Assembly: GCF_012163145.1 (NCBI RefSeq)
Contig: NZ_JAAVTX010000005.1
Span: 434,001 to 498,000 of the forward strand
Reading direction: 5' to 3'
Origin: Falsiroseomonas frigidaquae
GTDB lineage: Bacteria > Pseudomonadota > Alphaproteobacteria > Acetobacterales > Acetobacteraceae
DNA length: 64,000 nt
In this document: one piece after another, positions 4,104 to 18,047 of the stretch
Layout: each line of letters opens with the position of its first letter
Numbering within the stretch: position 1 is the stretch's first letter
Position numbers and translations under genes: made by a program
The notes under the pieces: generated by a model
What the model was told of the DNA's origin: nothing
Database searches by the model: none
What the model saw: the letters and a program-made list of their open reading frames with translations, nothing else

Positions 4104-4837
4104 TGCCATTGCTGCTTTCAATCAATGTGGATCATGTGGCGACGCTGCGGAACGCCCGCGGCGGGCGGTTTCCAGACCCCGTGGCCGCCGCAAAGCTATG
4201 CCTGTCCGCCGGTGCAGAGGGCATCACCATCCATCTGCGCGAGGACCGGCGGCACATCCGCGACCAGGACGTGGAGCGCATGAAGGCCGAGGTACCGGCC
4301 AAGCTCAACCTGGAAATGGCCGCCACCGAGGAAATGGTCGCCATCGCCATCCGGGTGATGCCGGAGGCCGTGTGCCTGGTGCCCGAGAAACGCCAGGAGC
4401 TGACCACCGAGGGCGGGCTGGATGTGCTGCGGAGTGGCCCCGGCTTCGCCCAGGCCATCCAGCGCCTGACCGGCGCCGGCATCCGCACTTCCATCTTCGT
4501 CGAGGCTGATCGCGCTCAGATCGAGGCCGCTGCCAGGCTGGGCGCCAACTGCATCGAACTGCACACGGGCACCTACGCCGACGCGATGCCCAGCGAACGC
4601 CCCGTGCATCTCACGCGCCTGGCACAGGGGGCGCGTGACGCCGCGGCGGCAGGCCTGCTGTGCCATGCCGGCCATGGTCTGGATTTCGACTGCATCGGCG
4701 GCGTCGCGGCCTTGCCGGAGGTTTCCGAGGTCTCGATTGGGCACTTCCTGATCGGCCAGAGCGTCTTCGAGGGATTGCCCTCGGCCGTACGGCGGATGCG
4801 GGACCTCATTGACGCGGCGCGGCACTCCCAGGGCTGA
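4100..4837 (+). CDS. pdxJ: Pyridoxine 5'-phosphate synthase PdxJ
   Basis: 245 residues. Condenses 1-deoxy-xylulose 5-phosphate with the PdxA product to make pyridoxine 5'-phosphate. Family signatures: INVDHVATLRNARG at the N-terminus, HLREDRRHIRDQDV, and the C-terminal phosphate-binding segment EVSIGHFLIGQSVF. The gene begins inside the pdxA stop (ATGA overlap); a second ATG follows immediately, so the protein may start one codon later. The pair forms a dedicated B6 operon with no other recognisable member. Confidence 0.96.
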   Translation: MMPLLLSINVDHVATLRNARGGRFPDPVAAAKLCLSAGAEGITIHLREDRRHIRDQDVERMKAEVPAKLNLEMAATEEMVAIAIRVMPEAVCLVPEKRQELTTEGGLDVLRSGPGFAQAIQRLTGAGIRTSIFVEADRAQIEAAARLGANCIELHTGTYADAMPSERPVHLTRLAQGARDAAAAGLLCHAGHGLDFDCIGGVAALPEVSEVSIGHFLIGQSVFEGLPSAVRRMRDLIDAARHSQG

Positions 4838-4949
4838 GCGCCCGTTGGGCTGCCCTTGCATTTTGCATGGCCTGATGTTTGCTCGGTCTTCTGACAGCAA
4901 CGACTGCGGCAGGATGCCGGCAGCGGTGATTGCAGGATGCGAGGCGACA

Positions 4950-5243
4950 ATGGCGGCCGCGGCAAAGGCAAGGCAGACGATTCCGCTCTGGTCAGTGCGG
5001 CCGGGCCTACCGGATCAATCGACCGCCCCCCCTCCGCGCTCGGCCACTGTCATCCCCCTGCCCCTGGGCGTGGCGCGGAGCCGGCAGGTCCTCACCTATC
5101 CGGCCGCCATCACGGTGCCGCCTCGCTGCCCGGAGCAACCCGCAACCGCGGAGCAGCCGCTGGCCGCCCTGCCGCTGCTCGCACTCTCAGCACCGACAGC
5201 GCTGATCGGCGCCTGCATGATGCTTTTCCAGATCCTCGGCTGA
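4950..5243 (+). CDS. Hypothetical small protein (doubtful)
   Basis: The 433-bp stretch from 4838 to 5270 between pdxJ and the binding-protein gene holds no recognisable gene. The best candidate is a 97-residue frame starting at the ATG at 4950 with GAGG 5 nt upstream. It is proline- and alanine-rich in the middle and ends in a hydrophobic stretch (about residues 70-97) that could be one membrane span. In-frame starts also exist at 4914 and 4875. Two other open frames overlap it, as expected by chance in GC-rich DNA, and no family is recognisable. Confidence 0.22.
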   Translation: MAAAAKARQTIPLWSVRPGLPDQSTAPPPRSATVIPLPLGVARSRQVLTYPAAITVPPRCPEQPATAEQPLAALPLLALSAPTALIGACMMLFQILG

Positions 5244-5272
5244 TCCCCAGGCTTCGGCTGATCCCCAGGCTC
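5237..5272. repeat. Tandem 18-bp direct repeat (two copies)
   Basis: Two head-to-tail copies of an 18-bp unit beginning CGGCTGATCCCCAGGC, 17 of 18 bases alike, immediately downstream of the stop of the binding-protein gene on the other strand. Most simply a local duplication in the convergent intergenic space. No function can be assigned. Confidence 0.6.
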
Positions 5273-6065
5273 AGGCACTGACACCCCATTTCTGGCCGAG
5301 TTCGGCAAAGAAGCCGCTCGCCTGCCGGATGGTGACCCAGGCGTTGAGGAAGTTCAGGAAGACCGGATCCTGCAGCGGCGCCATGAACGCCATGGGGATG
5401 GGGTTGCGTGGCTGGTCGCTGAAAAGCGAGACAAGATCCGGATATTCCCGCGTGAGGAAGGCGGCCTCAATCACCGTCGACATGGTGGCGTCCACCCGGC
5501 CGCCCAGCAGTTCCTGCCAGTCTCGCGCCGGACTCTCCACGCGGCGAAGGGTTGCGGCCGGCAAGGCCTGCTGCACGAATTGCTCCATCGTGGTGCCGAG
5601 ATTGGTGCCGACGGTCACGCCCCGCTGGTTCAGGGCTTCCCATGTGGCGAAGCGGCCCGCGTTGCGGCGGGTGGTCAAGGGGATGAAGCCGGTGCGGCCC
5701 CAGGGGATCGTGAAGCTCGCCGCCATCGCGCGGGCGATGGACATAGAGGTTCCGGTGAACACCACATCATACTGGTCGGCCTGCAGGCCGTTGATCAGCG
5801 TGCGCCAGTCGGTCGCCACGAATTCTGGCCGCACCCCCATGTCGCGCGCCAGTTGCTCCGCCGCCTCGATCTGATGGCCGCGATAGCTGCGCGTGGCCGG
5901 GTCGCGGAAGCTCATCGGGTTGAAGTCGCCCGTAGTGCCGATGCGGATGCGCCCGGCGGACTGGATCGCCTGGAGGCGCCCGCCATTAGCCTGCTGCGCC
6001 AGGGCCTGGGCGGGCAGCAGCAGGGATGCGGCAGCGGCGGCGGCCGGTATGTGGCGACGTAACAT
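5271..6065 (-). CDS. Polar amino-acid ABC transporter substrate-binding protein
   Basis: 264 residues from the ATG at 6065, which has GGAG 9 nt upstream and opens a clear Sec signal peptide (MLRRH, hydrophobic alanine/leucine core, cut near ALAQQA). The mature part is a family 3 solute-binding protein: RIRIGTTGDFNPMSF at the start of the ligand domain, YRGHQIEAAEQLARDMG, and EAAFLTREYPDL near the end. It should bind a polar amino acid or related small compound in the periplasm and deliver it to the permease gene that starts 121 bp away on the opposite strand. No ATPase gene is adjacent. Confidence 0.88.
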   Translation of the reverse strand: MLRRHIPAAAAAASLLLPAQALAQQANGGRLQAIQSAGRIRIGTTGDFNPMSFRDPATRSYRGHQIEAAEQLARDMGVRPEFVATDWRTLINGLQADQYDVVFTGTSMSIARAMAASFTIPWGRTGFIPLTTRRNAGRFATWEALNQRGVTVGTNLGTTMEQFVQQALPAATLRRVESPARDWQELLGGRVDATMSTVIEAAFLTREYPDLVSLFSDQPRNPIPMAFMAPLQDPVFLNFLNAWVTIRQASGFFAELGQKWGVSA

Positions 6066-6186
6066 GGGGAAGAGCTCCATCTGGGCAGGGCGGAGGTTGG
6101 TCCACCTTCGCAATTTGCAACGTCATACCCGACTTCCGCTGCGTGTCGCATCTCGCCCGAGCAGGGAAAGCGTGGGAAACAGCCAC

Positions 6187-6960
6187 ATGTCGACCCTCCC
6201 CTTCCCGCGACAGCCGCGTATTTGGCTGCCTTTCCCGCTGCTGATGCTGTCCGGCTGCGGCAGCAACTGGGGCTGGCATGTAGTCGACCCCACCGATGCC
6301 CGAGGCAGGGCCAATCTGGACTTCATGGTGGAGGGGCTATGGGCAACCGTCACACTTTCGGTTGCCGCGATCCTGCTCTCCGTCCTGATGGGCACGGGAA
6401 TTGCCCTGCTCGGCTTCTCGCGGCTGCGCCCTCTGCGACTGGCCAACCGTATTTGGGTCGAGCTGTTCCGCGCGGTTCCGATCCTGGTGCTCATCCTGTG
6501 GGTGTTCTACGGCCTGCCTGTGGTGCTGGGCATCCGGCTGGATGTCTTCACCGCGGCCCTGATCGCGATAGCTCTCTGCGACTCGGCGTTCGAGGCCGAA
6601 ATCCTGCGCGGTGGCATCCAGAGCATCGAGCAGGGCCAGCGGGAGGGCGCCGCCGCGCTCGGCCTGTCGCGCTGGCAGGCCATGCGCCTGGTCATCCTGC
6701 CACAGGCCATCCGCCGCATCCTGCCGCCGGTCGCCAACCAATTCGTCTATGTGGTGAAGATGAGCAGCCTGGCGAGCGTGATCGGCTACCAGGACCTGAC
6801 GCGCCGCGCCAATGAGCTCGTTGTGTCCGTCTTCCGACCGCTCGAGATCTATACAATCCTGATCCTCGAATACTTGGTGCTGATCCTGATCATCTCGGCA
6901 GGCGCCCGCTGGCTGGAACGGCGGCTTGGTGCGGACCAGACGCGGCGGCGGGACGGTTGA
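6187..6960 (+). CDS. Amino-acid ABC transporter permease (HisM/GlnP type)
   Basis: 257 residues from the ATG at 6187. Membrane subunit of a polar amino-acid importer with the BPD_transp_1 fold: about five spans, the ELFRAVPILVLI segment, and the EAA loop (REGAAALGLSRWQAMRLVI) that contacts the ATPase. The N-terminus is odd: a basic stretch, a hydrophobic run and LSGC at residues 21-24, which looks like a lipoprotein cleavage box, then GSNWGW. I recall similar N-termini in other members, so it may be a first membrane span. It is divergent from its likely binding protein, and the ATPase must be encoded elsewhere. Confidence 0.88.
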   Translation: MSTLPFPRQPRIWLPFPLLMLSGCGSNWGWHVVDPTDARGRANLDFMVEGLWATVTLSVAAILLSVLMGTGIALLGFSRLRPLRLANRIWVELFRAVPILVLILWVFYGLPVVLGIRLDVFTAALIAIALCDSAFEAEILRGGIQSIEQGQREGAAALGLSRWQAMRLVILPQAIRRILPPVANQFVYVVKMSSLASVIGYQDLTRRANELVVSVFRPLEIYTILILEYLVLILIISAGARWLERRLGADQTRRRDG

Positions 6961-6991
6961 CGGGCCGCCCCCGGGCAGCCAGCGTCCGGGG

Positions 6992-8032
6992 ATGACAGAC
7001 ATCCTCCCGCCGACCGATGAGGCGGCAGCCGCCATCCATGCCGCGACGCTGACGCTCGACACCCATGTCGACGTGCCATGGCCGGCCACCCCTGACCCTG
7101 CGACGCAGACGGCACGGCGGGTCGACTACCCCAAGATGCAGGCCGGTGGCCTGAAGGGGGTGGTGTTCATCGCCTATGTGCCCCAGGGCCCGCTGACCCC
7201 GGAAGGTCACGATGCTGCAGGCGCGCGCGCCGAAGCCATGTTGCGGGCCATCGCCGCCACCGCCGGCGAGACACCGATGCGGCGGCGCCTGTGCACGACG
7301 CCGGACGAGTTGGAAGCCTGCGCGGCGGATGGCGCGCTGGCGATCCTGCTCGGTGTCGAGAATGGCTATGCGATGGGCGAGGATCTGTCGCGACTTGCGC
7401 TCTGGCGCCAGCTCGGCGCCATCTACCTGACCGTCACCCATGACGGGCACAACGCCCTATCGGATGCGGCCCGGCCGCGGGCCGACCTGGGCGATGCACC
7501 GACGCGTCATGGCGGCCTGTCCGCCCTCGGGCGGGCCGCGATCGGGGAAATGAACCGCGTCGGCCTGATCGTCGACGTATCCCATGTCGCGCGCAGCGCC
7601 ATGCTGCAGGCTGCGGAATTGTCGCGCACGCCCGTGGTTGCCACCCATGCCTGCTGCCGTGCCCTGCGGGACCATCCGCGGAACCTGGATGACGCACAGA
7701 TGGACGCGCTGCGGGATGTGGGCGGGCTGCTGCAGATCACCGCGGTGCCGAGCTTCCTGAAGGCGCCCGATGCGGATGGCACCGCTCGGGCGACCGTGTC
7801 CGACTACGCGGACCATGTGGACTACGCGGTGTGCCGCATCGGCATCGACCATGTCGGCCTGTCGTCCGACTTCGATGGCGGCGGTGGCGTGCAGGGCTGG
7901 CAGGATGCGTCGATGTCCGGGGCCGTCAGCGCGGAACTGCTGCGCCGCGGCTATGGGCCACGCGAACTCGGGCTGCTGTGGTCGGGCAATTTCCTCCGTG
8001 TCTGGCGCGCGACCCTGCGGGCCGCGCGCTGA
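6992..8032 (+). CDS. Peptidase M19 (membrane/renal-type) dipeptidase
   Basis: 346 residues. A zinc metallopeptidase that cleaves dipeptides, including ones with a D-residue at the second position. Metal-site signatures are visible: DTHVDVPW near residue 23, GVENGYAMG with its bridging glutamate, LTHDGHN, VDVSHVA, VATHACCRAL and HVGLSSDFDGG. I chose the ATG at 6992 because the upstream extension is not family-like; GGGG lies directly before it, which is a poor ribosome site. The start is 31 bp after the permease stop, so the two may be cotranscribed. No signal peptide is apparent, so it is probably cytoplasmic. Confidence 0.9.
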   Translation: MTDILPPTDEAAAAIHAATLTLDTHVDVPWPATPDPATQTARRVDYPKMQAGGLKGVVFIAYVPQGPLTPEGHDAAGARAEAMLRAIAATAGETPMRRRLCTTPDELEACAADGALAILLGVENGYAMGEDLSRLALWRQLGAIYLTVTHDGHNALSDAARPRADLGDAPTRHGGLSALGRAAIGEMNRVGLIVDVSHVARSAMLQAAELSRTPVVATHACCRALRDHPRNLDDAQMDALRDVGGLLQITAVPSFLKAPDADGTARATVSDYADHVDYAVCRIGIDHVGLSSDFDGGGGVQGWQDASMSGAVSAELLRRGYGPRELGLLWSGNFLRVWRATLRAAR

Positions 8033-8041
8033 CCGGCAGGC

Positions 8042-9082
8042 TCAGCCGTTGGTGAAGTTGATCCGCTCCATGCCGAAGAACTTCACGACCTGGCCATTGA
8101 TCGTGATCTGGCCATTCGACGGGCCGTTGAAGACGATGGAGTTGCCCTGGAAGCTGTAGGAGCCGCCTTCGTACATCATGATGTTGCCGGAGGAGATGCT
8201 GCTGAAGGGCGTCCCCTCGATGACCACCGAATCCTGGCCGGCGACGCCATGGAATTCATCATTACCTTCGCCGGGGCTCCAGTAGAACACGTCGTTGCCG
8301 TCGCCGCCGAAGGCCTTGTCGTCGCCAGCGCCCATGCGGAAGCTGTCATTGCCATCACCACCATGCGCCTGGTCGCTGCCGGCGCCGGCATTGAACTGGT
8401 TGTCACCGCTGCCGACCGGCTGCCAGCTGCCGTCACTTCCGGCACCCCAGGTGTTCGAACCCGCCAGGTTGTCTACACCCGAAGTCCCGGTGATCACGCT
8501 GCTGCCGGGGGTGGCCGGCGGCGTCACGGGCGGCGTTACAGGCGGCGCCACCGTGGTGTCGGGCATGGTCAGTTGTTCGACACCGAAGAAGCGAACGGTT
8601 TCGCCATTCACCGTGAACTGGCCGTTGGCTGGACCATTGAAGACAATGCTGTGGCCGACGATCGAATAGCTGCCTTGGTAGAGCTGCAGCCCGTCGGTGA
8701 CCTGCTGGAGCGAGAGCCCCTCCACCATCACGTTGTCGGCCCCGGTGCCGCCGTGCAGCTCGTCATTGCCGTCGCCGGCGCGCCACCACAGGGTGTCATT
8801 CCCGTCGCCGCCAAAGACCTTGTCGCCATCGCCGGTGCCGCCGCGAAGGTGATCATGGCCATCGCCGCCATGCAGTTCGTCGGCCCCACCGCCGCCAGCG
8901 AGCACGTCGTTGCCGCTGTTCACGGGCTGGTCGCCGGCCCAGGTGGCCGATCCCATAAGCTTGTCCCCGCCGTCGCCACCGACCAGCGTGTCGTCGCCCG
9001 CGCCACCGGATCGTTCGTTGAAACCTCCAACCACAATCTCAAGCGTCTTAATATCGATTACATGCGGCTTTTTGGTGGACAC
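8042..9082 (-). CDS. Double-glycine-leader RTX repeat protein, likely exported substrate
   Basis: 346 residues starting at a GTG with GGAAG 8 nt upstream. Residues 1-20 form a leader ending IDIKTLEIVVGG: hydrophobic residues at -12 (Ile), -7 (Leu) and -4 (Val) and Gly-Gly at -2/-1, the pattern cut by C39 peptidases. The rest is an internal duplication: module A (about 28-174) and module B (about 199-346) each hold RTX nonapeptides (GGDGNDTLWW, GGDGNDVFYW) followed by a near-identical region (SIVFNGPANGQFTVNG and SIVFNGPSNGQITING, then FFG). A proline linker (about 179-192) joins them. There is no cysteine. It lies divergent to an HlyD/C39-ABC/ABC operon, its probable exporter. Biological activity is unknown. 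Confidence 0.85.
   Translation of the reverse strand: MSTKKPHVIDIKTLEIVVGGFNERSGGAGDDTLVGGDGGDKLMGSATWAGDQPVNSGNDVLAGGGGADELHGGDGHDHLRGGTGDGDKVFGGDGNDTLWWRAGDGNDELHGGTGADNVMVEGLSLQQVTDGLQLYQGSYSIVGHSIVFNGPANGQFTVNGETVRFFGVEQLTMPDTTVAPPVTPPVTPPATPGSSVITGTSGVDNLAGSNTWGAGSDGSWQPVGSGDNQFNAGAGSDQAHGGDGNDSFRMGAGDDKAFGGDGNDVFYWSPGEGNDEFHGVAGQDSVVIEGTPFSSISSGNIMMYEGGSYSFQGNSIVFNGPSNGQITINGQVVKFFGMERINFTNG
9023..9082 (-). other. Predicted double-glycine leader peptide (20 codons)
   Basis: Codons 1-20 of the RTX gene. The predicted cut is after Gly20, leaving FNERSGG at the mature N-terminus. The leader is short and contains Lys4, Lys5 and Lys12, more like a bacteriocin-type leader than the long nitrile-hydratase-like leaders usual for NHLM systems. 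Cleavage is inference from the motif and from the intact C39 domain encoded next door. Confidence 0.6.
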
Positions 9083-9194
9083 GGATCGATCTTCCCAAAG
9101 CGTCTCGAAATACTTTATCGTTGCGCCCTTGGCGTATCAACACAGAATGAAACCGATTGCGTTAAGGTTCGGGCAGAGACGCAGGTTCCCAAGC

Positions 9195-9220
9195 CCGTGC
9201 AACTCCGTCACTCTGCACGG
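9195..9220. promoter_or_regulatory. Inverted repeat in the divergent promoter region of the RTX/export locus
   Basis: Arms CCGTGCA (9195-9201) and TGCACGG (9214-9220) are perfect complements around a 12-nt spacer, inside the 183-bp region separating the RTX gene (leftward) from the HlyD gene (rightward). A T-run (TTTTTT) follows about 12 nt later, too far for a classic terminator. It could be an operator for a dimeric regulator or a leader hairpin; no regulator gene is adjacent. Confidence 0.3.
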
Positions 9221-9265
9221 CCGCTGGAATCTATTTTTTGACGTAGCGGGGAATGTCTGGAAACG

Positions 9266-10555
9266 ATGTCTGCCCCTCCCCTGTTCCGCCGCGAGGCCGT
9301 CGCCGAGGCCGCGGCACCCGACCGATACGATGAGGCGCTGCGGGTCATGCGCCCGCTGAGCTGGGTCATTGGCGGCGTCCTGCTTGGCATGGCCCTCATT
9401 GGCCTGGTCTGGGCGTCCCTCGTCGACGTGCCGGTCAAGGTCGCCGGCCGGGGGATTCTTCTGCCGCCGGGCGGTGTGGTCGACATCGTGGCCGACACGG
9501 ATGGCCGAATCGAATCCCTCATGGTGCGGCCGGGCGATCGCGTCGAGGCCGGCAGGCCGGTTGCGCAGGTCGACCAGTCCGAGGTCCGGCTGCAACTGGC
9601 GCTCGCCGAGGGCCAGGCCGCCGACGCGGCGCGTCATCGCCGCGAGCTGCTGGATTTCCATCGGCGGGAAGAGGCAGCCGCCGATGCTTTCAGGATCGCC
9701 CGCGACGCCGCCCTGACGCAGAACCTCCGCCTCCTCGAGGAACGCCTGGGGATGATGCGGGAGCGGGAGGATGTGCTCCGCGGCCTGTCGCAACAGAACC
9801 TGGTGAATCGTGACCGTGCCCTGTTCGCGCGGGTGGAGGTGTTCCAGGTCCGGGAACAGATCGCCGCGGCGCGCAACGAGCGGGAGCAGCTGATCCTCGA
9901 CCAGGCGCTGAAACGCACGCAGCGAGAGCGGGAGACGATGGAGTCCGAGCGCCGGGCGGATGAGACCGGCCGCCAGGCGCAGGCCCTCCGCGACCGGCTG
10001 CTGCGGCTAGGGGTGGTGATGGCCCCCTATTCGGGCATCGTCGTCGAATCCAAGGTCAATGAAGGCCAGGTGATCCAGCGCGGCACGCCGCTGCTGACCA
10101 TCGAGCGCGATCCCGAAAGCGGTCACGGCGGTCCGGTCGCCGTCGTCTATGTCACGGCACAGGATGGCAAGCGCCTGGCGGAAGGCCTGCGGGTCGAGGT
10201 TTCACCGTCCTCGACGCGGCGGGAGGAGCATGGCTTCGTCTACGGCCGTGTCATCCGCGTCGCCCATGTGCCCGCATCCTCCGCCGGCCTGCTGCGGACG
10301 CTGCAGAACGACCAGCTCGTCCGCAGCTTCACCACGGGGCTGGGCACGCCTTTTGAGGTCGAAGTGGCGCTGGAGCGCGATCCGTCCACCCGAAGCGGCT
10401 TGCGCTGGTCAACCGGTAGCGGCCCCGATTTCGCTGTTGAGTCCGGGACCTTGGCCGAAGCGGAGTTCACCGTGCGGTCGGTGCGCCTGATCGGCCTTGC
10501 CTTCCCTGCAGTCCGTGGCTGGCTCACCCGCTCGGCAGACGCCGGCACGCTATGA
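9266..10555 (+). CDS. HlyD-family periplasmic adaptor of NHLM-type export system
   Basis: 429 residues: a cytoplasmic N-terminus, one membrane span at about residues 34-54 (WVIGGVLLGMALIGLVW), a biotinyl/lipoyl-like half (ADTDGRIESLMVRPGDRVEAG), a long arginine/glutamate-rich coiled coil (about 110-240), the second half (VVMAPYSGIVVESKVNEGQVI), and a beta-barrel end. Such adaptors link inner-membrane ABC exporters to an outer-membrane channel; no TolC-type gene is in the window. The stop overlaps the start of the peptidase-ABC gene by 4 nt. Gene order adaptor, C39-ABC, ABC matches the NHLM (nitrile hydratase leader microcin) transport set. Confidence 0.88.
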   Translation: MSAPPLFRREAVAEAAAPDRYDEALRVMRPLSWVIGGVLLGMALIGLVWASLVDVPVKVAGRGILLPPGGVVDIVADTDGRIESLMVRPGDRVEAGRPVAQVDQSEVRLQLALAEGQAADAARHRRELLDFHRREEAAADAFRIARDAALTQNLRLLEERLGMMREREDVLRGLSQQNLVNRDRALFARVEVFQVREQIAAARNEREQLILDQALKRTQRERETMESERRADETGRQAQALRDRLLRLGVVMAPYSGIVVESKVNEGQVIQRGTPLLTIERDPESGHGGPVAVVYVTAQDGKRLAEGLRVEVSPSSTRREEHGFVYGRVIRVAHVPASSAGLLRTLQNDQLVRSFTTGLGTPFEVEVALERDPSTRSGLRWSTGSGPDFAVESGTLAEAEFTVRSVRLIGLAFPAVRGWLTRSADAGTL

Positions 10556-12723
10556 CGGATGATGTGGCCAGCACCCCCCGCACGGCCCGGCGGGTTCGCA
10601 CGCCGACGGTGCTGCAGATGGAGGCGGTGGAATGCGGCGCGGCGGCGCTGGGCATCATCCTCGGCTTCTACGGCCGCTGGGTGGCGCTTGAGGAATTGCG
10701 CGTGGCCTGCGGCGTGTCGCGTGATGGCAGCCGCGCCAGCCACCTGGCCTCCGCGGCCCGCCAGTACGGCATGCAGGTGCAGGCCTTCCGGATGGAGCCG
10801 AGCCACATCCCCGGCATGCGGCTGCCGCTGATCGCCCATTGGGGCATGAACCATTTCGTGGTGATCGAGGGCATCGGCCCGCGCTACGTCCACATCAACG
10901 ACCCCGCCAGCGGCCCTCGCCGCATCACGCGGGAGGAGCTGGACCGCAACTTCACCGGCGTCACCCTGGTGCTGGAGCCTGGCCCGGACTTCCGCAAGGG
11001 CGGGGAGCCGCCGCGCGCGGTGGGCGGCATCCTGCGCCGCCTGCGCGGCAACGAGGCGAGCTTCGGCTTCCTCGTGGGCGTCAGCATGTTGCTGATGATC
11101 CCAGCCCTGCTGGTGCCTGCCTTTTCGCAGGTCTTCGTCGACGACGTGCTGGTCGGCCGCTTCGATTCCTGGCTGACGCCGCTGCTGCTCGGCATGGCAG
11201 GGGCAGCCGCGGCGATGGCCGTCGTCACCTGGCTGCAGCTCGACCTGCTGCTGCGGCTGGAGACGCGGCTCTCCGTTGCCGGCTCCGCCGCCTTCCTCGA
11301 AAGGCTGATGCGCCTGCCGGTCGCATTCTTCGCCCAGCGCCATCCGGGCGATGTCGCCGGCCGGGTGCTGCTGAACGACCGGATCGCGCGGCTCGTGTCC
11401 GGCGATGTGGGGCGCGGCCTGCTGGGGCTGATCACGGCGCTGGCCTACGCCGCGGTGATGGCCCTGTACGACCGGCAGCTGACAGGCGTGGTGATACTGG
11501 CCGCCATCATCAACCTGGCGGCCCTGGCATCGCTCAGCCGGTCGCTGAGCGACGACAACCAGCGCCTGCTGTCCCGCACACTGCGCTCCGAGGGCCTGGG
11601 CAAGCAGGGCCTGCAGATGATCGAGACCTATCGCTCCTCCGGCAGCGAGAGCCTTCTTCTAGCCCAGCTTGCCGGTACGCGCGCCGGCGTGGCCAACATC
11701 ACCCAAAGCCTGGCGCTGCGCCGCGGTGTGCTGGAGGGCCTTCCCGCCTTCGTCGCGATCGCCGCGGCCGCCGCTGTGCTGGTGCTTGGCGGATCCCGCA
11801 TCATGGAGGGCGCGATGACCGTCGGCCAGCTTGTCGCCTTCCAGGCGCTGACCGTGGGGTTCATGGGGCCGGTTGCGCAGCTGGTCGGCGTCGCGACGCA
11901 GATGCAGGACGCCAAGGCGAACCTGACTTTGCTGGAAGACACCATGCATCACCCGCTGGCCGCCGAATTCGGGGCAGCCCCGGCCCGTGCCGCGGCGGCC
12001 CGCTTCACCGGCCATGTGGAACTCCGCGACGTGGTCTTCGGCCATAGCCGGCTGGAGGCACCGCTGCTGGACGGCATCTCACTGACCCTGGAGCCGGGCC
12101 GCCGCCTCGGCATCGTGGGCGGGTCGGGGTCCGGGAAGTCGACTTTGGCGCTGCTGATCGCCGGCCTCTATCGCCCCTGGTCTGGGGAGATCCTGATCGA
12201 CGGCCGTCCCCTGGATTCCATCCCGCGTGAGGAATTGCGGAGAGAGGTCGCAGTCGTGGACCAGCAAGGCTACCTGTTCGACGGCACCATCCGCGACAAC
12301 ATCGCCATGTGGGATCCAACGCTGGCCGATGAGCGTCTTGTCGAGTGCGCCCAGGATGCGGCCATTCATGACGAAATTCTGGCGCGGCGCGGTGGTTATG
12401 CCGGGGTGGTGGCGGAGGAGGGCCGCAACTGGTCCGGTGGCCAGCGCGCCCGCCTGGAAATGGCACGCGCCATCGTCACCGATCCGTCGATCTTGGTGCT
12501 CGACGAGGCGACGGCCTCACTCGACAACCGATCCGAGGCGACGGTGATGCGGAACCTGCGCCGGCGCGGCTGCACCATGATCCTGATCGCCCATCGCCTG
12601 GCCCTGGTGCGCGATTGCGACGAAGTGATCGTGATGGAGCGCGGCCGTATCATCCAACGCGGCCGGCCGGAGGAGCTGGCCGGTGCTGTCGGTCCTTTCC
12701 GCAAGATGCTCGCCAGTGGCTGA
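10552..12723 (+). CDS. C39 peptidase-containing ABC transporter (NHLM-type, PCAT)
   Basis: 723 residues in three parts. The N-terminal C39 peptidase (about 15-145) is intact: Gln22 and Cys28 in LQMEAVECGAAALG, His101 in WGMNHFVVIEG, Asp117 in INDPASG. The transmembrane domain spans about 160-450. The ATPase domain has Walker A GGSGSGKST at about 524-532, signature WSGGQ at about 627, and Walker B ILVLDEATASLD at about 646-657. Enzymes of this class cut substrates after a Gly-Gly leader and pump the mature part across the inner membrane. The likely substrate is the RTX protein encoded divergently. Overlaps its neighbour upstream by 4 nt and is 2 bp from the next gene, so all three are one operon. 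Confidence 0.93.
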   Translation: MTDDVASTPRTARRVRTPTVLQMEAVECGAAALGIILGFYGRWVALEELRVACGVSRDGSRASHLASAARQYGMQVQAFRMEPSHIPGMRLPLIAHWGMNHFVVIEGIGPRYVHINDPASGPRRITREELDRNFTGVTLVLEPGPDFRKGGEPPRAVGGILRRLRGNEASFGFLVGVSMLLMIPALLVPAFSQVFVDDVLVGRFDSWLTPLLLGMAGAAAAMAVVTWLQLDLLLRLETRLSVAGSAAFLERLMRLPVAFFAQRHPGDVAGRVLLNDRIARLVSGDVGRGLLGLITALAYAAVMALYDRQLTGVVILAAIINLAALASLSRSLSDDNQRLLSRTLRSEGLGKQGLQMIETYRSSGSESLLLAQLAGTRAGVANITQSLALRRGVLEGLPAFVAIAAAAAVLVLGGSRIMEGAMTVGQLVAFQALTVGFMGPVAQLVGVATQMQDAKANLTLLEDTMHHPLAAEFGAAPARAAAARFTGHVELRDVVFGHSRLEAPLLDGISLTLEPGRRLGIVGGSGSGKSTLALLIAGLYRPWSGEILIDGRPLDSIPREELRREVAVVDQQGYLFDGTIRDNIAMWDPTLADERLVECAQDAAIHDEILARRGGYAGVVAEEGRNWSGGQRARLEMARAIVTDPSILVLDEATASLDNRSEATVMRNLRRRGCTMILIAHRLALVRDCDEVIVMERGRIIQRGRPEELAGAVGPFRKMLASG

Positions 12724-12725
12724 CC

Positions 12726-15668
12726 ATGCCTGACACACTGCCCGCGAATCTGGCCGCGCCGCCACAGCCGGCCGAGCCCCATACGCTGCCGGCGCATGCG
12801 CCCCTGCATCTGGACGACGCTTCCGCACGCTGGCTGGTCACGTCTGGCACGGTGACCCTGTTCGCCACCCGCCCGGCGCGCGCGCCAGCAACCGAGGGGC
12901 CGCGGCGCTACATCGGGACCGTCACCGCGGGCGGGCTTCTCTGCGGGCTCGGCGTCGATGACATGGGTGCCAATCTGATTGCGGTTGGCACCGCCGAGAC
13001 CCGCATCGCGCCGCTGGAGCAGCCCCCTTCGCCGCTGGATGCGGAGTGGAGCAACCGGTTGGCGCAGGCGACCACCCTTTGGTGCAGGACGCTCGCGGAG
13101 GGCCTGGCCCGGCCCATGGCGCCGCGGCCTCGTGCGGATGTCGCGATAAGCGCAGCGCTCGGCACAGTCCAGACCGCGCCCAACGCAACGCTCGCTACTC
13201 GTGGGCCGCCCATCTGGCTGCGCCTACCGCCTGGTTCCTGGCTGTTCCTGGGACTGGAGCCGGTTGCCGGCCTGGTGCCGCTGCCAGCGGAAGCCTGGCT
13301 GACCGGCAGCGGCGGCCTGGTCGCTGCAGTGCCGGCTCTCGACGCCATGGCGGATCCCGCCTGGGAAGCTGGGCTCGCAACCTACAATGCCGCCTGCCTC
13401 GGCGCCCTGTCCTCGGCACTGGCGCTCGACGCTGCCGATGAACTGAACCGCCTGCGACTGCGGGCAGAGCGGGACGAGGAAGCTGGCGCGGAACAGCGGA
13501 CCGCCTTCGCCGCAATCCTTGGGAACCCGCCGGAAGTACAGGCCGCCGCGGATGGCGACCCGCTGATGCCGGTCTTCCGCATCATTGCCAGCCGTCTGGG
13601 CGTGCGTGCCAAGCGGCCGATCCGGGTGCGACGGGCCGATATCGACGCGGTTCCGACGCTGCAGGAACTCGCCCGGGCGTCCGGGCTGCGGCTGCGGCCG
13701 GCGCATCTGCCCGATGGCTGGTGGCGTGACGACCATGGCCCGCTGTTCGGCACGCTGAATGGCGCAACGGTGGCACTGCTGCCGCATCGCGGCGGCTACC
13801 GGCTGCACACGGCCGACAAGTTGGCGGGCCAACGCGTCGATCCAGCTCTGGCCCAACAAATCAGTCGGGAGGCGCTGGCGCCCATCATCCCGCTGCCGCG
13901 CAAGGCACTTGGGCTGACGGACCTGATCGGCAGCGGCATGCGCGGCAGTGGGCACGATGTCACCGCCATCTTCGCCACCATGCTGATCGGCGCGGCGCTG
14001 GGCCAGGCGGTGCCACTCGGCACGGGCATTGCTTTCTCGCTGCTGATCCCCGGCGGGCATCTGGGCGAACTGACGCAGCTTGGGCTTGCCCTCGTGCTCG
14101 TCGCGGCGGTGGGTTGGGCTGTGAAGCTGGGCAGCGAGATCGCCCGCCAGCGCATCGAGGCCAAGGCCGGACCGGCCCTTCATGCTGCTGTCTGGGACCG
14201 CGTCATGCGCCTGCCCATGGCGACGCTGAACCGGCAGACGGTCGGCGAAACCTCCGGCCGCGCTGGCTCGGCCATCAGCCTGGCCATGCAGTTGCGGGCC
14301 TTCAGCTTCACCATCATCAGCGCGGTGGCGACGATCCTGTCCTCCTGCGTCCTGATGCTGCTGTCCCAGCCGCTCGCTGCGGCGGTCGCCGTCGGCATGC
14401 TGGCGCTGCAACTGGCCGCGGCGAACCTGGCCGGCTGGCTGCAGGCCCGCGCCTTCGCGACGGGCGAGGCCCTGTCCGGTCTGGCCGACGCGATGGTGTT
14501 CCAGATCATCTCCGGCCTGGTGAAGCTGCGCCTGGCGGGGGCGGAAGCGCGTGCGCAGACGGTCTGGTCGGGACGCTTCGCCGAAATGCGCCGCCGCCTG
14601 GCCGCCGCCCGGCGCATCAGCAATGTCTATGATGCCTTCGCCGCCGGCTTCACCGTGCTGTCCACAGCCGCGGCCTTCCTGATCATCGCGATGATGCAGC
14701 AGGTGGAGATCGGCGAGCCGCCGCCCAGCCTGTCCTCTGTCATGACCTTCATCGCTGCCTACGGCCTGATGGTCGCGTCCGGCACGCAGCTGGCGAAGAC
14801 CATGTTCGCGCTGTGGTTCCTGATGCCGACGCGCAAATTCGCCCAGCCCCTGCTGGATGCCCTGCCGGAGGCAGATACCGGCAAGGTCGATCCGGGGCGG
14901 CTGAGTGGTGCGATAGACCTGTCGAACCTCGCCTTCCGCTACGGTCCGTCCGAATCCTGGATTTTCTCCGGCCTGTCGATGCGGATCGAGGCTGGCGAAT
15001 ATGTCGCAATCGTCGGACGGTCAGGCGCCGGGAAATCCACCCTTGTGCGCCTCCTGCTTGGTCTGGAGGAGCCCATCAGCGGCGCCATCTACATGGATGG
15101 GCACGATATCCGCGGGCTGGATCTCACCGTGCTGCGGCAGCAGATCGCAACAGTCCTGCAATCCGCACGCCTGCCCCCCGGGAGCCTGCGGGATGCGGTG
15201 CGCGGCCTGGCTCAGGTGAGCGAGGCCGAGATCTGGCACGCGCTGGAGCAGGCCGCCTTGGCTGCGGATGTGCGCGCGATGCCGATGGGGCTTGAGACCA
15301 TGCTGACCGATGCCAGCCGCGTGCTGTCCGGCGGCCAGGTGCAGCGCCTGCTGTTGGCGCGCGCCTTGCTACAGAAGCCCGCGGTTCTGATCCTGGACGA
15401 GGCGACCAGCGCGCTGGACAACATCACCCAGCGCGCGACCATGCGGGCCATCCGCACGATGCCGGCGACCCGCATCGTCATCGCGCATCGCCTGTCCACC
15501 ATCCGAAATGCGGACCGCATCATCGTGCTCGATGGCGGTCGCATCGTGGAGAGCGGCAGCTTCGAGCAGCTCCTGCAGCGCAAGGGCGGGTTCTTCGCCC
15601 GCCAATACGCCGAGGAAGCCCGCTGGCAGGCCGCAGCGGGCGCGGACCAGGAGGGCGGGGCTGCCTGA
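12726..15668 (+). CDS. Second ABC transporter of NHLM-type export system (no peptidase)
   Basis: 980 residues. An N-terminal region of about 400 residues begins with a cyclic-nucleotide-binding-like beta fold (LDDASARWLVTSG...RRYIGTVTAGG) and carries no C39 catalytic cysteine. Then come a six-helix ABC exporter domain (about 430-715) and an ATPase with AIVGRSGAGKST, signature LSGGQ, and VLILDEATSALD. This architecture matches the second ATP-binding protein of NHLM bacteriocin-type exporters, thought to pair with the peptidase-bearing partner. Start chosen at the ATG 2 bp after the partner's stop. A heterodimer with the upstream transporter is inferred, not shown. Confidence 0.9.
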   Translation: MPDTLPANLAAPPQPAEPHTLPAHAPLHLDDASARWLVTSGTVTLFATRPARAPATEGPRRYIGTVTAGGLLCGLGVDDMGANLIAVGTAETRIAPLEQPPSPLDAEWSNRLAQATTLWCRTLAEGLARPMAPRPRADVAISAALGTVQTAPNATLATRGPPIWLRLPPGSWLFLGLEPVAGLVPLPAEAWLTGSGGLVAAVPALDAMADPAWEAGLATYNAACLGALSSALALDAADELNRLRLRAERDEEAGAEQRTAFAAILGNPPEVQAAADGDPLMPVFRIIASRLGVRAKRPIRVRRADIDAVPTLQELARASGLRLRPAHLPDGWWRDDHGPLFGTLNGATVALLPHRGGYRLHTADKLAGQRVDPALAQQISREALAPIIPLPRKALGLTDLIGSGMRGSGHDVTAIFATMLIGAALGQAVPLGTGIAFSLLIPGGHLGELTQLGLALVLVAAVGWAVKLGSEIARQRIEAKAGPALHAAVWDRVMRLPMATLNRQTVGETSGRAGSAISLAMQLRAFSFTIISAVATILSSCVLMLLSQPLAAAVAVGMLALQLAAANLAGWLQARAFATGEALSGLADAMVFQIISGLVKLRLAGAEARAQTVWSGRFAEMRRRLAAARRISNVYDAFAAGFTVLSTAAAFLIIAMMQQVEIGEPPPSLSSVMTFIAAYGLMVASGTQLAKTMFALWFLMPTRKFAQPLLDALPEADTGKVDPGRLSGAIDLSNLAFRYGPSESWIFSGLSMRIEAGEYVAIVGRSGAGKSTLVRLLLGLEEPISGAIYMDGHDIRGLDLTVLRQQIATVLQSARLPPGSLRDAVRGLAQVSEAEIWHALEQAALAADVRAMPMGLETMLTDASRVLSGGQVQRLLLARALLQKPAVLILDEATSALDNITQRATMRAIRTMPATRIVIAHRLSTIRNADRIIVLDGGRIVESGSFEQLLQRKGGFFARQYAEEARWQAAAGADQEGGAA

Positions 15669-15674
15669 TCGGCC

Positions 15675-18047
15675 TCAGCCGGCTTTCGGCGCCGACTGAA
15701 TCGCCTGCCACACGCGCTCCGGCGTCGCCGGCATGTCGATGTGGCGGATGCCATGGGCGGAAAGCGCATCCACCACCGCATTCATCACCGCTGGCAGCGA
15801 TCCTGCGCAGCCAGCCTCGCCGCAGCCCTTGGCGCCGAGAGGATTGGTGGTAGCGGGAACCGGGTGGCTGACGAAGGTGATGTCAGGCATGTCACCTGCC
15901 CGCGGCAGCGCATAGTCGAGGTAGCTGCCGGTCTGCATCTGGCCATCCTCGCCGAAGGCCACGCTCTCCATCAGCGCCTGGCCGATGCCCTGGGCGATAC
16001 CGCCATGCGCCTGGCCGGCAACCAGCATCGGGTTCACGATGACGCCGAAGTCATTCACCGACAGATAGCGGTCGATGCTGACGATCCCGGTCTCCGGATC
16101 GATCTCGACCTCCGCGACGTGGCAGCCATTCGGGTAAGCCTGCGGCGCCTGGTCGAAGACATGGGTCACATCGAGCGTCGCGGGCACCCCCTCCGGCAGC
16201 GCCGGCGCCTGTTGCAGCCGGGCGGCCAGCTCCATGATGCCGACGCCACGGTCGGTGCCGGCGATCAGGAAGCGGCCTTCGCCGGACTCAGGATGCGCCT
16301 CGAACTCGATATCCGAAACGGCCGCCTCCAGCGCCCAGGCCGCGGCTGCACGCCCCTTCTCCACCACCAGTTCCGAAGCCTCGACGATGGCGGCGCCGGA
16401 GGCCATGAGCGACTTCGACCCGCCGGTGCCGCCACCGGCCACCAGCTCGTCCGAATCGCCCTGCTTCAGGCGGATCTGGTGGAAGGGAACGCCTATGGAT
16501 TGGTGCAGCACCTGGGCGAAGGCACTCCAATGCCCCTGCCCGTAGTCCAGCGTGCCGGTGACGATGGTGACGGTGCCGTCCTTCTCGAAGCGGATGCCGC
16601 CCTGTTCCTTGGTCGGCGGTGCCGTACATTCGAGGAAATTGCCGATTCCGAGGCCGCGCAACAGGCCCTTCTCCGCGCTTGCCGCCTTGCGGGAAGCGAA
16701 GCCGGGCAGGTCGGCGGCCGTGATCGTCTGGTCCAGCAGCGCAGTGAAGTCGCCGCCGTCATAGTTGCTGCCGGACGCGGCAGCGTAGGGCATTTCCTCC
16801 GGTCGGATGTGGTTGCGGCGGCGCAGCTCGATGGCGTTCAGCCCCATCTCCTTCGCCGCGGCTTCGATCAGCCGTTCCATGAAGTAGTTGCCTTCCGGCC
16901 GGCCGGCGCCGCGATAGGCGGAGACGGGGCTCGTGTTGGTCAACAGGCTCCGCGTCACCACCTCGATCAGCGGCGTGCGGTAATTGGACTGCACGTTCTT
17001 CCAGAAATTCGCGGTGCCCATCAGCGGCGCGACGGTGGACAGGTAGGCCCCCATATTGGCGAAGGAGGTCAGCCGCACGGCCAGGAAACGGCCCTGGGCA
17101 TCCAAGGCAAGCTCGGCCTCCACCTCATGGTCCCGGCCGTGCTGATCGGAGAGGAAGCTGCTGGTCCGCTCATCCGTCCACTTCACTGGCCGGCCGAGTT
17201 CCTTCGCGGCATGCAGCAGGCAGATGTATTCGGGATAGGCATTAGCCTTCATGCCGAAGCTGCCGCCGACATTGCCGGTCAGGATCCGCACCTGCTGCGT
17301 CGGCACCTTCAGGACCTCGTTGGCCATCTGCGCGCGCAGCCCGAAAACGCCCTGGCAGCCAACGCGCAGCACGTAGCGGCCATCCTCGAAGGATCCGATG
17401 GCGCTGCGCGGTTCCATGGCGCAGACCACGATGCGGTTGTTGCGGATGCCCAGGCGCGTGACATGTGCGGCCGACGCGAAGGCCTCGGCCACCTTGGTGC
17501 TGTCGCCCTGCTGGAAATCCAGCACGAGATTGCCCGGGATGTCGTCATACAGCTGCGGTGCACCAGGCTCGGCGGCGGCGGAGGCCTGGGTGACAGCCGG
17601 CAGCATGTCGATGTCGAGCTCGACCATTTCCGCAGCGTCCTTCGCCTCGGCGCGCGACTCCGCGACGACAAAGGCCACGGGGTCGCCGACGAAGCGAACC
17701 TTGTCAGTGGCCAGCGCGTGCCGATAGGTCGTCCGGATGGGCGAACCATCGCGATTCTTCAGCGGCATGCCACACTTCATCGGGCCATAGCCGGCGGCCA
17801 CCAGGTCCGCGCCGGTCCAGACGCCCAACACCCCCGGCATGGCGCGTGCAGCGTCCGTACCGATGCCGCGGATCACGCCATGGGCATAGGGGCTGCGCAC
17901 CATCACGCACCAGATCTGGCCCGGCAGGGCGATGTCATCCGTGTACTGGCCTCGTCCGGTCAGCAGAATCGGGTCCTCGGCGCGCGGCACGGACTGCCCG
18001 ATTCCGAACTTCAGGCGCGTCGCGTCCAGCATGTTGGTGTCGGGCAT
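15675..18047 (-). CDS. Xanthine dehydrogenase-family molybdopterin subunit, CoxL-like form II
   Basis: 790 residues, normal for large molybdenum-hydroxylase subunits. N-terminal aldehyde oxidase/xanthine dehydrogenase a/b hammerhead region (RAEDPILLTGRGQYTDDI); the active-site loop at about residue 375 reads AYRGAGR, the form II signature, not the AYxCSFR of true CO dehydrogenase. A catalytic-glutamate segment GCGEAG lies near residue 740. It probably oxidises an aldehyde or N-heterocycle; true CO oxidation is unlikely. The usual FAD (CoxM) and iron-sulfur (CoxS) subunit genes are not adjacent, which is unusual. Start ATG has GAGGA 5 nt upstream. Confidence 0.85.
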   Translation of the reverse strand: MPDTNMLDATRLKFGIGQSVPRAEDPILLTGRGQYTDDIALPGQIWCVMVRSPYAHGVIRGIGTDAARAMPGVLGVWTGADLVAAGYGPMKCGMPLKNRDGSPIRTTYRHALATDKVRFVGDPVAFVVAESRAEAKDAAEMVELDIDMLPAVTQASAAAEPGAPQLYDDIPGNLVLDFQQGDSTKVAEAFASAAHVTRLGIRNNRIVVCAMEPRSAIGSFEDGRYVLRVGCQGVFGLRAQMANEVLKVPTQQVRILTGNVGGSFGMKANAYPEYICLLHAAKELGRPVKWTDERTSSFLSDQHGRDHEVEAELALDAQGRFLAVRLTSFANMGAYLSTVAPLMGTANFWKNVQSNYRTPLIEVVTRSLLTNTSPVSAYRGAGRPEGNYFMERLIEAAAKEMGLNAIELRRRNHIRPEEMPYAAASGSNYDGGDFTALLDQTITAADLPGFASRKAASAEKGLLRGLGIGNFLECTAPPTKEQGGIRFEKDGTVTIVTGTLDYGQGHWSAFAQVLHQSIGVPFHQIRLKQGDSDELVAGGGTGGSKSLMASGAAIVEASELVVEKGRAAAAWALEAAVSDIEFEAHPESGEGRFLIAGTDRGVGIMELAARLQQAPALPEGVPATLDVTHVFDQAPQAYPNGCHVAEVEIDPETGIVSIDRYLSVNDFGVIVNPMLVAGQAHGGIAQGIGQALMESVAFGEDGQMQTGSYLDYALPRAGDMPDITFVSHPVPATTNPLGAKGCGEAGCAGSLPAVMNAVVDALSAHGIRHIDMPATPERVWQAIQSAPKAG

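Follow-up and report, generated by a model that had tools for sequence, protein, structure and literature searches.

RTX proteins with double-glycine leaders as probable cargo of an NHLM-type C39 exporter in Falsiroseomonas and related bacteria

Background

Exporters with an active C39 peptidase are described in a 2021 review (PMC8277102) as carrying substrates of up to about 10 kDa, and exporters with C39-like domains as carrying RTX cargo of more than 50 kDa. The RTX domain is there tied to a dead C39-like domain, and an earlier sentence of the same review makes a looser link of C39 domains with RTX cargo that has a noncleavable C-terminal signal. This paper concerns a locus of Falsiroseomonas frigidaquae in which a gene for an RTX protein with a double-glycine leader lies next to an NHLM-type exporter with an intact C39 domain. 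The window, that is the whole stretch of DNA analysed, comprises 64,000 nucleotides (assembly GCF_012163145.1, contig NZ_JAAVTX010000005.1, positions 434,001 to 498,000 of the forward strand). Genomes and loci carry G and L numbers where they need to be told apart.

Cyanobacterial precursors of such clusters are 28 to 164 amino acids long (PMC3140520), and NHLP-type exporters of Legionella have been described as putative bacteriocin exporters (PMC6959600). The last 20 residues of RTX proteins are enriched in D[FL] and depleted in R, K, E and P, and [FLI][VAI] is enriched at the C-terminal end (PMC8861453). Full-text searches confined to the open literature listed no paper that names RTX proteins with double-glycine leaders.

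Results

The RTX gene of the window is divergent from a set of three genes (Table 1), hlyD, ABC1 and ABC2, where ABC1 is an ATP-binding cassette (ABC) exporter with a C39 peptidase and ABC2 a second subunit without it. This arrangement, including the leader of 20 residues, had been proposed in a first-pass annotation, and both the sequence and matches to NCBIfam and Pfam models bear it out. HlyD scores 248.9 bits against TIGR03794 (NCBIfam cut-off 156.2) and ABC1 898.9 bits against TIGR03796 (cut-off 853.3); ABC2 matches TIGR03797 over positions 1-679 of 686 with 604.2 bits, under the cut-off of 709.4. The C39 domain of ABC1 is intact, as had been claimed, with Gln22, Cys28, His101 and Asp117 all present, and the four residues are invariant in all 11 exporters of clade A, the group of ABC1 relatives described below.

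The RTX protein matches PF00353 (6.1e-20, five stretches) and has GGxGxDxUx repeats in two halves joined by a Pro/Thr-rich linker. Its leader ends in LEIVVGG and is followed by FNERSGG. Relative to the G008 orthologue, the leader has changed at 10 of 20 residues but not at the key positions, and 275 of 324 residues of the mature part are identical. A leader arising by chance was rejected as an explanation because 3 of 310 complete open reading frames (ORFs) of at least 100 amino acids in the window fit the pattern defined below, one of them the RTX ORF itself. The AlphaFold 2 model of the protein has a mean pLDDT of 81.5 and a pTM of 0.52, with the leader in blocks of mean pLDDT 61 and 50. A second AlphaFold model, for the relative at L070, is rich in strands (pLDDT 89.4) and again weak in the leader (blocks of 67 and 54); in the PDB it matches RTX blocks of CyaA and serralysins, with a best E of 3.6e-6 and TM-scores of mostly 0.2-0.47.

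Among the matches listed for 16 genomes of the genus, the window RTX protein has a single near-orthologue, in G008 (83%), besides many shorter relatives. Twenty of these regions contained 17 further RTX relatives, 16 of which have a leader with a hydrophobic residue at -12, Leu at -7, Val or Ala at -4 and Gly-Gly; an RTX fragment (L078:8495-9163) is without a leader. The leader before RTX repeats, for which the first-pass annotation had suggested a search across genomes, was found in 44 of 68 distinct complete RTX ORFs, the other 24 being leaderless. The pattern requires Gly-Gly, L or M at -7, L, I, V, A or T at -4 and L, I, V, M or F at -12, and the set of 68 consists of the loci of the window's family and one Roseomonas marmotae plasmid, with a single filter applied throughout. 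Within the pattern, Leu occupies -7 in 44/44 and Val -4 in 39/44 of the leader-RTX proteins. Positions -11, -10 and -8, on which the pattern sets no demand, show a preference for acidic residues, Ser, Thr or Ala, and the published leader logo of NHLP/N11P precursors (PMC2887384) resembles these preferences. The mature proteins are 143-437 amino acids long (median 191.5, n=44) with masses of 14.5-44.5 kDa (median about 19), all 44 above 10 kDa. Most members are mature proteins of about 190 residues whose genes lie far from the exporter.

Searching named genomes with the C-terminal portion of the RTX family yielded 32 loci. Seventeen come from Falsiroseomonas, Roseomonas, Pararoseomonas and Pseudoroseomonas, and all 17 have the leader. 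The remaining 15, from other taxa (L218-L232), comprise seven without a pattern match and eight matched solely inside long ORFs; these eight matches were judged not to be leaders and stand outside the 68. One leader-RTX gene was seen on the plasmid record of Roseomonas marmotae (L233:8950-9621, plus strand), near insertion sequence elements.

The leader-RTX family and the clade A exporter occur together. A model of the RTX family (E up to 1e-38, a threshold derived from the genus survey, with ten candidates in each genome scored) found matches in five of 299 sampled genomes of the Acetobacteraceae (G000, G004, G008, G018 and G214), and ABC1 relatives of at least 74% identity were present in the same five and nowhere else in the sample; 12 further genomes had ABC1 relatives of 39-46% only. 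In the genus survey both were found together in 5 of the 16 genomes (G000, G001, G004, G008 and G015), among the matches listed, and a clade A ABC1 at 72-80% was present in all four genomes reached via RTX loci (G308-G311). The RTX ORFs of clade A genomes bear the leader in 26 of 27 cases, which is no unbiased rate since the 27 were chosen by similarity to the family; the single miss (L071) has a leader that was dropped by the filter. In the genus genomes without clade A, the leader was found in none of 10 complete RTX ORFs (best matches by E-value, with 26 end-cut ORFs dropped). An ABC1 tree of 36 rows places clade A (11 rows) in one group with support 99/99, clade B (8 rows) in another with 100/100 and the two together with 100/100, with a warning from the tool of long branches, above all that of the outgroup. 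No near DNA match to hlyD or ABC1 was found on plasmids.

A leader-RTX gene adjoins the clade A exporter in seven of nine loci read, the clade A rows L234 and L235 being outside these nine, so that the observation named in the first-pass annotation as telling against its pairing, exporters never standing beside this RTX family, was not made. The seven are the window and the loci of G008 (L064), R. rosea (L068), Roseomonas sp. SXEYE001 (L191), F. algicola (L137), P. deserti (L205) and Roseomonas sp. 18066 (L208), in three arrangements: divergent, same-strand upstream and same-strand downstream. Leader-RTX genes elsewhere in the genome number at least five in R. oleicola and at least nine in F. 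tokyonensis, and G008 (F. selenitidurans) and G000 have at least ten and at least six leader-RTX genes respectively. For the members at a distance, which are the majority, the exporter would have to act in trans. G008 and G015 each have a single C39 domain; therefore, if any C39 peptidase cuts the leaders in these genomes, it is that of clade A.

The C-termini of the two kinds of RTX protein differ in part. D[FL] occurs in the last 20 residues of 0/44 proteins with the leader and 15/24 without it (p = 3e-9), and the medians of R+K+E+P are 4 and 2 respectively (p = 4e-9), in tests that treat related proteins as independent. Among the leaderless ORFs D[FL] is present in 8/12 from the same genomes as leader-RTX proteins and in 7/12 from others. 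Leaderless proteins end in, for example, SDFIL, SDFVFG or GDFQLF, and leader-RTX proteins in ERIRLG or EQITIAG. A motif of our own was found in 4/44 proteins with the leader and 19/24 without, but was defined after viewing the C-termini, and the published D[FL] feature is therefore used as the basis; D[FL] was taken from the publication before testing, when the C-termini had already been viewed. Together with the recurrence of the leader and the shared occurrence in five of 299 genomes, this difference supports, by comparison, the pairing of protein and exporter first read from the window.

The exporters of clade B are accompanied by another protein with a double-glycine leader, of about 370-500 amino acids, directly upstream of hlyD in 8/8 loci examined; four members of the family, which spans about 365-500 amino acids with the Azospirillum oryzae protein below included, are in Table 1. 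The five clade B proteins whose full sequence was read are Ala-rich towards the C-terminus and lack RTX repeats, and Pfam searches of two members of the family gave weak leader or apolipoprotein-like matches alone, the apolipoprotein-like ones in a single protein. A similar leader protein of 365 amino acids is found upstream of an exporter in Azospirillum oryzae that is 53% identical.

The more distant clade C has short precursors nearby in 10 of 14 loci scanned, nine with precursors of 51-119 amino acids and one (L133) with an NHLP peptide. No convincing precursor was found by the pattern scan in L065, L195 and L198; the scan detects short leaders only, and it missed the peptide of L133, which was found with the TIGR03793 model. 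At L069 (G020) a tandem pair of leader proteins, each of about 420 amino acids (4226-5491 and 5765-7051, both plus strand), lies upstream of the NHLM exporter. TIGR03793, the NHLP precursor model, exceeded its cut-off in one of the 16 genus genomes (G010:C66) and in no clade A genome, G000 included, in searches that covered these 16 genomes and left TIGR03798/N11P aside. Matches under the cut-off were present in all 16 and are probably true nitrile hydratases.

Two further groups of small ORFs were observed near C39 or NHLM exporters. In G013, a more distant C39 exporter has two short glycine-rich leader peptides upstream (L138:6905-7653, plus strand), their core full of GGNGGN. On a plasmid of Bradyrhizobium sp. 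CB82, four ORFs of 70-73 amino acids sharing one leader (L267:14521-17682, minus strand) are downstream of an NHLM exporter, and three of the four have the same core start.

Table 1. Coordinates of the features at the window locus and of members of the leader protein family found at clade B loci
Feature	Position	Strand	Remarks
RTX calcium-binding protein gene	8042..9082	-	346 aa, GTG start; two similar RTX halves
Double-glycine leader, 20 residues	9023..9082	-	Ile(-12), Leu(-7), Val(-4), Gly-Gly; predicted cut after Gly20
Sigma-70-like promoter match upstream of RTX gene	9112..9140	-	consensus match alone
NHLM-type HlyD membrane fusion protein	9266..10555	+	TIGR03794
NHLM-type ABC exporter with C39 peptidase (ABC1)	10552..12723	+	TIGR03796; Cys28, His101, Asp117
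Second NHLM-type ABC subunit without peptidase (ABC2), N-terminal extension	12726..15668	+	TIGR03797-like, under cut-off
Clade B leader protein	L063:12360-13865	-	non-RTX, double-glycine
Clade B leader protein	L131:5987-7096	+	non-RTX, double-glycine
Clade B leader protein	L130:5097-6443	+	non-RTX, double-glycine
Leader protein of the clade B-linked family	L265:5386-6483	+	non-RTX, double-glycine

For ABC2 the start at ATG 12726 (980 amino acids) appears more likely from the sequence than TTG 12615. Its N-terminal extension (12726-13600, plus strand) has no Pfam match. The promoter scan of positions 7900-15900 found one sigma-70-like match with 0.4 expected, and no terminators. The hits from PADLOC, cross-matches among ABC genes and a marginal one of the RTX protein to Csm3, were set aside, and a PHROGs search gave no match.

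Discussion

It is very likely that the clade A exporter cuts the N-terminal leader off the RTX family and exports the mature proteins. The observed part of this explanation consists of gene content, conservation of the leader, co-occurrence, linkage and absence of D[FL]. The clade A NHLM-type exporter, composed of HlyD, the C39-ABC and the second ABC, would recognise the double-glycine leader of the RTX proteins, the C39 domain would remove it, and the mature protein of 14-44 kDa would be exported to fold on extracellular calcium. One exporter may serve the adjacent gene and, in several genomes, also unlinked paralogues in trans, and the N-terminal leader would stand in for the signal that ordinary RTX proteins have at the C-terminus. 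Recognition, cleavage, export and folding outside the cell are the steps that we infer.

Several points weigh against this explanation. The leader-RTX family was assembled by similarity to itself, and the association tests count related proteins and genomes as independent. In R. oleicola (L129, G004) and F. tokyonensis (L128, G015) a dipeptidase gene is directly next to hlyD with no RTX gene between. Curated leader models give no match to the window leader and match few family members, weakly; TIGR01847 reaches 15.1 bits with the leader of L064, where the cut-off is 15.7. Proteins with a leader (7/44) and without one (7/24) do not differ in the published [FLI][VAI] ending (p = 0.22). Export of microcin V falls sharply at 116 amino acids (PMC10231218).

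The cut product might instead remain periplasmic or surface-bound, which is unlikely. In type I systems an HlyD partner points to transit of both membranes, and its presence here suggests such a passage.

It is less likely still that the RTX proteins exit by another type I exporter via a C-terminal signal, the double-glycine segment being incidental or just a processing site. G000 has six ABC matches to TIGR03796 and two C39 domains, which leaves room for such an exporter, and the leader-RTX proteins show no significant depletion of the [FLI][VAI] ending. However, D[FL] is absent from all 44 of them, they co-occur with clade A, and the key leader positions have been kept even though half of the leader has changed.

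That the true substrate is an overlooked short peptide, with the RTX genes as passengers, is very improbable: the more distant NHLM exporters are indeed mostly beside short precursors, and the precursor search was limited to short leaders and left N11P precursors (TIGR03798) outside, but the pattern scan of seven clade A loci (the window, L064, L068, L128, L129, L137 and L191; not L205 or L208) gave, apart from the RTX gene where present, four other frames that were judged not to be precursors (window 13198-13581, L068:3711-4037, L128:10531-11379 and L129:17422-18222), the one genus genome with TIGR03793 over its cut-off is not of clade A, and the RTX genes themselves bear the leader.

It seems fairly probable that the bacteriocin exporters' size limit has been lost in the NHLM-type C39 exporters of clades A and B, and that these perform leader-cutting secretion of full-size proteins. 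Clade A would carry the RTX family, which reaches at least ten mostly unlinked members per genome, and clade B the other leader protein of about 370-500 amino acids, in a further type I class that crosses classes 1 and 2. If this is true, the match of cargo type and export signal that is usual in this secretion route is broken in Roseomonas-like bacteria, and the leader-RTX family looks like a direct exception to the rule on C39 and cargo in the 2021 review (PMC8277102). The family makes the questions of size limit and signal swap testable, with 12 leaderless RTX ORFs of the same genomes, eight of them with D[FL], as internal controls. The route might also leave a native N-terminus on full-size proteins.

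Comparison with known systems

The NHLM/NHLP cassette (TIGR03794, TIGR03796 and TIGR03797; PMC2887384) has the same three exporter genes, of which ABC2 is here under its model's cut-off, and a leader logo of Leu, acidic, Leu, Val/Leu and Gly-Gly. It differs in its cargo, which here is an RTX protein of 143-437 residues; there is no NHLP precursor over the cut-off, and the locus is therefore referred to as having an NHLM-type exporter and not an NHLP system.

LapA-type RTX adhesins, which are linked to BTLCP, have in common with this locus an RTX protein and N-terminal proteolysis. Their cut is periplasmic, at a dialanine, and their signals are C-terminal (PMC8861453), whereas here there is a short double-glycine leader and a C39 exporter.

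RTX repeats are shared with HlyB- and PrtD-type secretion, and the L070 model matches CyaA RTX and serralysin with low TM-scores. Unlike those systems, with C39-like domains or none, this locus has an active-looking C39 domain, an N-terminal leader and no C-terminal D[FL]. The intact C39 domain and the double-glycine leader with its spacing are those of class 1 type I secretion and of PCATs, peptidase-containing ABC transporters (CvaB, PCAT1 and ComA), but the cargo described for these is up to about 10 kDa (PMC8277102) and consists here of RTX proteins of 14-44 kDa. Judged by its sequences, the locus would thus work like class 1 type I secretion carrying class 2 cargo.

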